Part shown: positions 54,660 to 56,121 of the stretch, in pieces
Position numbering within the stretch: position 1 is the first letter of the stretch
Layout of the letters: every line of letters begins with the position of its first letter
Source of the DNA: Roseicyclus marinus
Lineage (GTDB): Bacteria; Pseudomonadota; Alphaproteobacteria; Rhodobacterales; Rhodobacteraceae
Length of the DNA stretch: 64,000 bases
Direction of reading: 5' to 3'
Assembly (NCBI RefSeq): GCF_030163795.1
Contig: NZ_JASJOF010000003.1
Span: 357,501-421,500 of the forward strand
Made by a program: the position numbers and the translations under genes
Notes under the pieces: model-generated
Seen by the model: the letters and a program-made list of their open reading frames with translations, nothing else
What the model was told of the DNA's origin: nothing
Database searches by the model: none

Positions 54660-54804
54660 GCCGGGCTTCAGCCCGGCACCGTAGGGTGGGCAATCCTGCC
54701 CACCAAACCGCCGCCCACCATCCCCACCAACCACCCGCGCTGCGTGGTGGGTTTCACCCACCCCACACCACCCGCGCGCCTGGTGGGCAAATTGCCCACC
54801 CTAC
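54660..54804. repeat. Cluster of palindromic repeats next to the ParDE genes
   Basis: Four imperfectly related palindromes lie in 145 nt. They are GCCGGGCT/AGCCCGGC (54660-54677), a GTAGGGTGGGCAATCCTGCC element (54681-54704), GGTGGGTTTCACCCACC (54747-54762 region) and GGTGGGCAAATTGCCCACC ending in CTAC (54782-54804). The last supplies the TAG stop of parE (54803-54801). They match the repeat pair at 10841-10912 and resemble the first palindrome at 14175-14191. A further shorter copy, TGCCCACCCTA, lies at 54634-54644. Confidence 0.85.
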
Positions 54805-55085
54805 ACCGCCACATCCATGCTCTGGTGCAACACCCGCACCACCGTAACCGCCGCCGCATCCTCGCGAAAAAACACCACGTGGCTCCCCACCAACGCCCGC
54901 CGCAGCCCCGGCCCGACCTCCTCCGCGCGGCGGGATGCGGTCGCGCCGGTCGCAAGGCCGATCATCCGCGTATCCAGATCGTCCAGATACTTGTCAGCCT
55001 GCGCCTCGCCCCATGTCTGGAACGTGTAGATCCAGATGCCGCGCAAATCCGCTTCGGCCTCCGGCGAGACATCGAGCCGTTTCAC
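54801..55085 (-). CDS. parE: ParE/RelE-family toxin
   Basis: The 94-residue protein matches the ParE group: [20 protein letters not shown], then [20 protein letters not shown] and the C-terminal [22 protein letters not shown]. ParE-type toxins poison DNA gyrase. The GTG start overlaps the ParD stop (GTGA), the usual coupling. The TAG stop is part of a palindromic repeat, so the very C-terminus (MDVAV) may have been set by repeat insertion. Confidence 0.88.
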
Positions 55086-55339
55086 GACGCCTCGCGCTTG
55101 CGGGCCTCGGCCATCCACTCCGCACGGCGCGCGGGCCAATCCCATTCACGGGCAATCCCGCTCGCCTCGCCCTCCGCGATCAATTCCTTGAGCCGCGCCA
55201 GCTTGGCCTCTTCCTCCTCCAGCAGGCGCAGCCCCGCCCGCACCACCTCGCTGGCCGAGCCATAGCGCCCCTCCTTCACCTTCTCCTCGATGAAGCCCGC
55301 GAAATGATCCCCAAGGGAAACGGATGTGTTCTTGCCCAT
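55082..55339 (-). CDS. parD: ParD-family antitoxin
   Basis: The 85-residue protein has an N-terminal ribbon-helix-helix DNA-binding domain ([21 protein letters not shown], then [20 protein letters not shown]) and an acidic-basic C-terminal tail that would wrap the toxin. GGAGGG lies 6 nt before the ATG at 55339. Its operator candidate is 21 nt upstream, fitting autorepression by the ParDE complex. Confidence 0.92.
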
Positions 55340-55359
55340 GGCCTGCCCTCCGATACTGT

Positions 55360-55821: not shown

Positions 55822-55895
55822 CTGTAACTACGGATGTCCTACACAATCACTACGGCATCACGACGGAAACCCTACGCAAGGGTCCGGCCAACGAA

Positions 55896-55923
55896 AAAGG
55901 GCCACCCCATGGGGCGGCCCTTT
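55896..55923 (-). terminator. Strong terminator-like hairpin downstream of the micro-ORF
   Basis: AAAGGGCC (55896-55903) and GGCCCTTT (55916-55923) form the outer stem, with CCCC/GGGG inside around AT and one A-C mismatch. Read on the minus strand it ends in a run of T (TTTTT at 55898-55894). It lies 70 nt after the 18-codon frame and before arfB. Confidence 0.8.
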
Positions 55924-55993
55924 CGAAAGATCAGGAGGCGGTCCGGTTAGGACTTAACCAACCTTGCAAGGGCGAAATCACCCGAGGATTGCC

Positions 55994-56050
55994 TCAGGCG
56001 CGCACCTCCCAAGCTGTCCCGACACCGTTCTCCAATACCCTTCTAGACAC
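55994..56050 (-). CDS. Candidate 18-residue micro-ORF with perfect Shine-Dalgarno
   Basis: A GTG at 56050 opens an 18-codon frame ending in TGA at 55994, encoding (V/M)SRRVLENGVGTAWEVRA. It is preceded by AAGGAGGTGATCC, a complete match to the anti-Shine-Dalgarno end of 16S rRNA, with 7 nt between AAGGAGG and the start. TTGACA lies on the same strand at 56115-56110 and a strong terminator follows at 55923-55896, so it could be a free-standing transcript. I do not recognise the peptide; it could be a leader peptide, a small functional peptide or the translated part of an sRNA. Confidence 0.5.
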   Translation of the reverse strand: MSRRVLENGVGTAWEVRA

Positions 56051-56051
56051 T

Positions 56052-56064
56052 GGATCACCTCCTT
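56052..56064 (-). promoter_or_regulatory. Extended Shine-Dalgarno AAGGAGGTGATCC
   Basis: On the minus strand this 13-mer is fully complementary to the 3' end of 16S rRNA (GGATCACCTCCTT). Such length is rare for a native ribosome-binding site. It sits directly before the GTG of the 18-codon frame. Confidence 0.75.
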
Positions 56065-56121
56065 CCTGCTTGGTTGCTGTTAGGTCCAGCCTGCCACAGA
56101 TTTTGCGGTTGTCAAAACATT

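Follow-up and report, generated by a model that had tools for sequence, protein, structure and literature searches.

Within the window, by which we mean the whole 64,000-nt stretch of Roseicyclus marinus DNA analyzed here, the gap between a queuosine precursor transporter gene (yhhQ; 56745-56122) and arfB (55821-55390) holds a small unit of its own on the minus strand. The names of the two flanking genes, first proposed in a preliminary description of this DNA, were borne out by TIGR00697 and NF006718, respectively, both over the cut-off. The unit itself is also as that description had it, i.e. a -35 box, TTGACA (56115-56110), a Shine-Dalgarno (SD) sequence, AAGGAGGTGATCC (56064-56052), which is a 13-nt complement of the 16S 3' tail (as judged against the textbook tail), a GTG start codon (56050-56048), an 18-codon frame (VSRRVLENGVGTAWEVRA; 56050-55994) closed by TGA (55996-55994), and an intrinsic terminator hairpin with a T-run (55923-55894), apparent from both the sequence and the predicted fold, all on the minus strand.

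The exact 13-mer AAGGAGGTGATCC is found three times in the assembly, and the other two sites have no start codon at that spacing. We considered whether the match could stem from a plus-strand 16S gene, as its remnant or its end, and ruled this out, as no rRNA family matched in the window and the match ends after CTGGATCACCTCCTT. None of the three 13-mer sites resembles a 16S gene, and the assembly seems to be without one. Just past arfB, on the minus strand, there is a parDE-type toxin-antitoxin pair (window 54801-55355; PF05016 ParE_toxin, PF03693 / TIGR02606 ParD).

While the preliminary description had seen no convincing -10 box, comparison with relatives corrects this, supporting CAGGCT (56093-56088, minus strand), which follows TTGACA after a 16-bp spacer. 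TTGAC is present in 93 of 130 distinct Rhodobacteraceae upstream regions, and in 91 of these 93 an A at position 2 and a T at position 6 of the -10 box lie exactly 16 bp on; the same two bases at any other spacing from 12 to 23 are found in 0-7 of the 93 each. A generic promoter and terminator scanner flagged neither at the unit by its own criteria, so the evidence for the promoter is comparative. With its unmapped start set by the promoter spacing and its end by the terminator, the inferred transcript would span 56084-55894 on the minus strand. The promoter region (window 56115-56088, minus strand) has a conserved ACAAAATCTGTG-like stretch in its spacer in many Rhodobacteraceae, perhaps a regulator site; CTGTG or TTGTG occurs in 91 of the 130 upstream regions.

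Conservation in Rhodobacteraceae

When 61 genomes were searched at the DNA level, 41 had matches, many of which covered nothing but the terminator. The core was present in 27 of the 29 loci examined (L035 and L037 being the exceptions), with an 18-codon frame in 27 of 27, and a covariance model made from those 27 matched 260 of 296 Rhodobacteraceae genomes, once per genome in nearly all the genomes listed. The loci that were read number 137, consisting of all the long DNA-search matches, the best 30 covariance-model matches and 80 more among the better matches listed; they represent 131 distinct genomes, six loci being duplicates, and counts are given per distinct genome. An SD kept in front of a broken 18-codon frame, which the preliminary description had held would speak against a real peptide, was looked for and is not the pattern found, as 128 of the 131 distinct genomes have exactly 18 codons (kinship uncorrected) and the other three have 22, 24 and 17.

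The start codon is GTG in nearly all the Rhodobacteraceae loci, with ATG in one and TTG in one; L255, which has lost one base of the spacer, starts with TTG and still has 18 codons. At codon 19, tallied in 124 distinct frames with L254 and L255 omitted, TGA is found 51 times, TAG 44, TAA 27, and CGG and CAA once each. TGG, which would be expected if only purines were needed, is found in 0 of 124.

Of the 36 genomes among the 296 that had no covariance-model match, the 20 listed were examined. In four of them (L331, L332, L333 and L335) the gap between yhhQ and arfB again holds a copy, though a diverged one, with AAAGGAGGTGCC and an ATG, an unrelated peptide (of the MIIGKQEQLVKV... type) and a CCACCTC clamp strand. 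The SD of these copies matches 9 nt of the 16S tail, and three of the frames have 18 codons while the fourth has 23, so that the length was kept in three of the four despite the replacement of the peptide. Three further non-matching genomes have a similar SD followed by frames of 25, 26 or 31 codons, and nothing convincing was found in the rest of the 20. By this comparison, neither the 18-codon length nor the 13-nt SD is absolute.

These sequence comparisons bear out a stand-alone conserved unit with its frame under selection, given that 260 of 296 genomes are matched and that all three stop codons are used and TGG never; the unit is real, conserved and self-contained, and not a product of chance. 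It could still be proposed that the RNA is purely non-coding and that structural constraints have produced the frame as a side effect, as there is a strong constraint at the RNA level and Rfam lists the relative CC2171 (see below) as a non-coding sRNA. However, TGG is absent at the stop position even though the same hairpin pairing, as we infer it, could allow it, the length is kept in diverged copies of other sequence, and the frame is rescued by TTG in L255, and we therefore regard a purely non-coding RNA as highly improbable.

Relatives in other orders

The sole notable Rfam match of the unit is RF01867, the Caulobacter sRNA CC2171, over positions 1-159 of 159 with an E of 5.9e-8. The score of 42.0 bits, most of it contributed by the 5' block together with the terminator, lies below the gathering cut-off of 75, leaving no hit at the gathering threshold. 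The preliminary description had named no family for the unit, which must be amended in that a related Rfam sRNA exists, and holds to the extent that the score is below that family's cut-off. We take CC2171 to have come from the 2008 Caulobacter sRNA paper.

Like CC2171, the unit has the 5' block GAAAGGAGGUGAUCC-start-UCU and a closing terminator, and other CC2171 members also have a short frame. The 5' block of CC2171, AAAGGAGGUGAUCCAGUGUCU, is present, with GGAAGGAGG in the window where most relatives have GAAAGGAGG. Unlike in CC2171, the long-range consensus stem CAUUGUC/GACAAUG, which joins the start-codon region with the pre-terminator segment, is not formed, several of its pairs being non-standard in the alignment; in its place, CRYCUCC is predicted to close the SD itself.

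The CC2171 model matches 105 of 387 alphaproteobacterial genomes at an E of 0.01 or better, 14 of them over the cut-off. In each of the best 30 CC2171-model loci outside Rhodobacteraceae (30 of 30), the SD is of the same type, the start codon sits in the corresponding position and the frame has 18-26 codons. A pattern for the 5' block was found in at least 119 stretches in named genomes, and 80 pattern loci among the matches listed gave 78 complete frames, all of 14-31 codons, and two that run off the locus end. One of the 80 matches (L097:5050-5070) is in a MAG labelled Gemmatimonadota, and thus lies outside Alphaproteobacteria, where it may reflect contamination or chance. Frames of 14-31 codons are found in all of 131 distinct loci of the alphaproteobacterial type, some of them from Rhodobacteraceae, with a chance of 0.28 for each, and the length goes by clade, being 18 in Rhodobacterales and most Sphingomonadales, 14 in Bradyrhizobium, 22-23 in Mesorhizobium types and often 23-25 elsewhere. 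In the 14-codon frames of Bradyrhizobium and a Xanthobacteraceae MAG (L118, L129, L135, L138 and L094; ...KRCHLAG.AR), CACCUC of the frame's own coding sequence pairs with the SD. A stricter pattern, which misses many true cases, the R. marinus window genome included, was found in 76 of 397 Pseudomonadota genomes, i.e. in 76 of 161 Alphaproteobacteria and 0 of 236 others (counted from the listing), and a reversed control pattern had no match in the same 397 genomes.

The best reading of these alignments would be that the unit is related to the alphaproteobacterial CC2171 type but has diverged from it. The likeness between the Rhodobacteraceae unit and CC2171 may also have arisen by convergence, since the part they have in common is largely the 16S complement itself. 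Excerpts of published work place RF01867 in a Mesorhizobium sRNA table (PMC5596092) and, in the Rfam 15 paper, among the families improved with R-scape (PMC11701678).

Peptide and translation

The preliminary description had suggested looking for third-position variation that keeps the peptide, and the answer is divided: there is a weak synonymous excess in Rhodobacteraceae and none detected elsewhere. Of the single-base codon changes in Rhodobacteraceae, 38.1% are synonymous, vs 29.6% expected by re-placement (0/1000), with relatedness uncorrected and nonsense changes left in the null; the other two frames give 27.1% and 26.7%. Outside Rhodobacteraceae the share is 27.1% vs 29.0% expected (701/1000), in a set of 140 changes that has limited power.

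The residues L6, E7, G11 and T12 are nearly fixed in Rhodobacteraceae, and the C-terminal residues vary freely, the last six codons varying most. An ordinary tiny gene, where the 18-residue peptide is the product and the fold merely tunes its translation, would account for these residues, for the frame being kept in 128 of 131 genomes and for a synonymous excess that is absent in the other two frames. The same fixed residues, however, also have nearly fixed third bases (GAG, ACA), which points to an RNA constraint, and the freely varying C-terminus, the peptides that are wholly different between orders and in the diverged copies at the same place, and the lack of an excess outside Rhodobacteraceae all speak against the peptide as the product. 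We consider the tiny gene unlikely, and conclude from the codon comparisons that the start, the stop and the length are selected more clearly than the peptide, which may nevertheless matter within Rhodobacteraceae, where the synonymous excess is real.

Two special kinds of peptide were also considered. An arrest peptide is disfavored by inference, as the last six codons are the most variable, and inspection of the peptides by eye showed no obvious hydrophobicity that would suggest a type I toxin.

Published work bears on translation in both directions. Against it, a ribosome profiling study in Caulobacter reported that most ncRNA regions were untranslated, two earlier predicted ncRNAs being translated (PMC4117421). 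In S. meliloti, according to PMC10117765, 54 small frames were newly recognized as translated and a third of them lay on annotated sRNAs, which makes a translated sRNA plausible in Alphaproteobacteria.

Predicted fold and energetics

The RNA of the unit in the window has a predicted fold of -87.7 kcal/mol, with a z of -4.43 against 200 shuffles, and 32 relatives tested have a mean z of -3.8 (range -6.3 to -1.3). Three elements recur in the predicted folds of 129 distinct relatives. The first is a clamp on the SD (127 of 129), whose 5' arm in the window is AGGAGGUG of the SD (56063-56056) and whose 3' arm is the anti-SD-like CGCCUCCU (55940-55933) adjoining the terminator; the second is a start-codon hairpin (117 of 129; 56054-56031, with arms at 56054-56045 and 56040-56031); and the third is a hairpin with the stop codon in its 5' arm (56000-55979), the stop being paired in 116 of 129, all on the minus strand. 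The preliminary description had supposed that the full match to the 16S tail could drive very high translation, which is not supported, as the SD is predicted to be paired with CRYCUCC before the terminator in those 127 relatives.

The variants of the clamp 3' arm nearly all still pair with the SD (CACCTCC in 49, CATCTCC in 37 and CGCCTCC in 30). In a model-fitted alignment of 100 sequences, 94.9% of the clamp cells are paired, vs 40-52% when the stem is slid, and in the model-fitted alignment of the start-codon hairpin the figure is 95.2%. No two-sided compensatory change was found in the clamp stem in the 100-sequence alignment, the exchanges being of the G-U kind only, because the SD arm cannot vary.

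All the energies that follow are computed for RNA only, with co-transcriptional folding, proteins and the ribosome left aside. In the 129 Rhodobacteraceae sequences, a median of 10.6 kcal/mol is needed to open the SD, and a 6-nt AGGAGG duplex, which gives -9.2 kcal/mol, leaves the balance positive in 88 of 129. The duplex of the actual full SD site has a median of -23.0 kcal/mol, and with it the balance is positive in 0 of 129. The computed 6-nt SD is thus mostly unable to open the clamp and the full SD is able to, so that the extended SD fits an opening of the clamp by the 30S subunit. In the diverged copies, opening costs 7.8-10.1 kcal/mol and the 9-nt duplex gives -14.6 kcal/mol. At 85 loci of other orders the SD alone costs a median of 4.4 kcal/mol and the SD together with the start region 11.1; in these orders the predicted occluding partner differs and the SD itself is only lightly closed in the modeled folds. 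At the 131 loci of the alphaproteobacterial type, the predicted partner of the region after the start codon lies behind the frame in 71 and inside it in 46, and in 12 this region is open.

An alternative would be a decoy or brake, i.e. an RNA that holds 30S subunits through its 16S-tail complement and so lowers initiation. The computed -23.0 kcal/mol agrees with this, and there is a precedent by analogy in SprF1 of Staphylococcus aureus, whose purine-rich 5' end, in the account given in excerpts of PMC8938821, competes with mRNA for ribosomes. However, the unit keeps a start and a stop codon at fixed spacing, for which a decoy has no need, and the site is predicted to be closed, and we find a decoy quite unlikely.

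Neighboring genes

Within the flank examined, yhhQ precedes the unit in 126 of 131 Rhodobacteraceae genomes, and arfB lies close downstream on the same strand in 111 of 131. It was this synteny that first suggested a leader controlling the downstream ribosome rescue gene arfB by attenuation, and a ribosome-sensing leader ahead of a ribosome-rescue gene would make sense. The proposal was then weakened by genomes and orders without arfB. The flank (0.5-1.65 kb) has no ArfB match in 20 of the 131 genomes although the RNA is present, and in other groups a look at 30 loci showed no arfB and no yhhQ within about 1.5 kb, the 20 neighbor proteins scanned there being of mixed kinds. Moreover, the minimum-energy fold has the terminator hairpin beside the clamp and no competing antiterminator. 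An arfB leader is very unlikely in our judgment, and since the neighbors vary across genomes and orders, the RNA is best seen as a stand-alone unit. At the Bosea locus L086, an RNB-domain (RNase II/R type) gene lies downstream of the RNA on the same strand.

Proposed mechanism

The reading that we favor, and hold from the sequence evidence to be somewhat more probable than not, is that the RNA is a translated riboregulator, i.e. a CC2171-type sRNA in which ribosome docking or gated switching would be selected and not the peptide. It can be hypothesized that the last stretch of RNA ahead of the terminator folds back over the ribosome-binding region and shuts it, and that the 30S subunit would be able to open this clamp because the pairing of the SD with the 16S tail is far more extensive than that of an ordinary SD. 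Crossing of the short frame would unwind the start-codon hairpin and bring the ribosome to the stop codon inside the central hairpin, and its arrival there may alter the exposure or stability of parts of the RNA. The output would most likely be that the RNA acts in trans once remodeled, or that it is stabilized or destroyed according to ribosome supply. Several findings stand against this reading: the synonymous excess in Rhodobacteraceae, the lack of two-sided compensatory change in the clamp stem and the light closure of the SD in other orders, as well as the diverged copies, which have a 9-nt SD, so the full 13-nt match is dispensable, the three of 131 genomes that break the 18-codon rule, and the 12 of the 131 loci of the alphaproteobacterial type in which the start region is unpaired.

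A bolder form of the riboregulator, which we put forward as a doubtful possibility, would be a class-wide alphaproteobacterial switch that senses ribosomes, with an anti-SD clamp opened mainly by 30S subunits with an intact 16S tail, and a dispensable frame of 14-31 codons that would only pass the ribosome along and flip the RNA. If this were true, the switch would inform gene regulation throughout the class of ribosomes that are free or intact, and the peptide would be a meaningless by-product.

For the favored riboregulator, if docking is the signal, this would be a directly testable RNA that reads ribosome state or supply. By the conservation of its frames, a listed sRNA type, CC2171, appears to be translated in many alphaproteobacteria, and such frames fit neither the annotation of small proteins nor that of plain non-coding RNAs.

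Comparison with known systems

The open-access literature, as far as its accessible parts go, held no description of this RNA as translated, nor one of the putative design as a whole, in which an extended SD, a self-complementary clamp and a frame of fixed length are combined with a changing peptide. Besides CC2171, three kinds of system invite comparison.

Attenuator leader peptides likewise have a short frame followed by a terminator, and the Rhodobacteraceae unit usually stands ahead of a same-strand gene as they do; unlike them, it has no fixed downstream gene across orders and no antiterminator in the minimum-energy fold. SprF1 (excerpts of PMC8938821) has in common with the unit a purine-rich stretch that could engage the ribosome, for which there is here a computed duplex energy only; SprF1 is an antisense antitoxin, whereas this RNA has start and stop codons that are under selection and a site predicted to be closed. 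The third kind is that of dual-function sRNAs with tiny frames, such as rnTrpL/peTrpL of S. meliloti, from which, as excerpts of PMC10117765 report, a 14-codon frame is translated. Like rnTrpL, the unit is a small alphaproteobacterial RNA with a tiny frame, predicted here from the conservation of start, stop and length; unlike rnTrpL, which is leaderless and part of the trp attenuator, it has an extended SD and no conserved downstream gene across orders.
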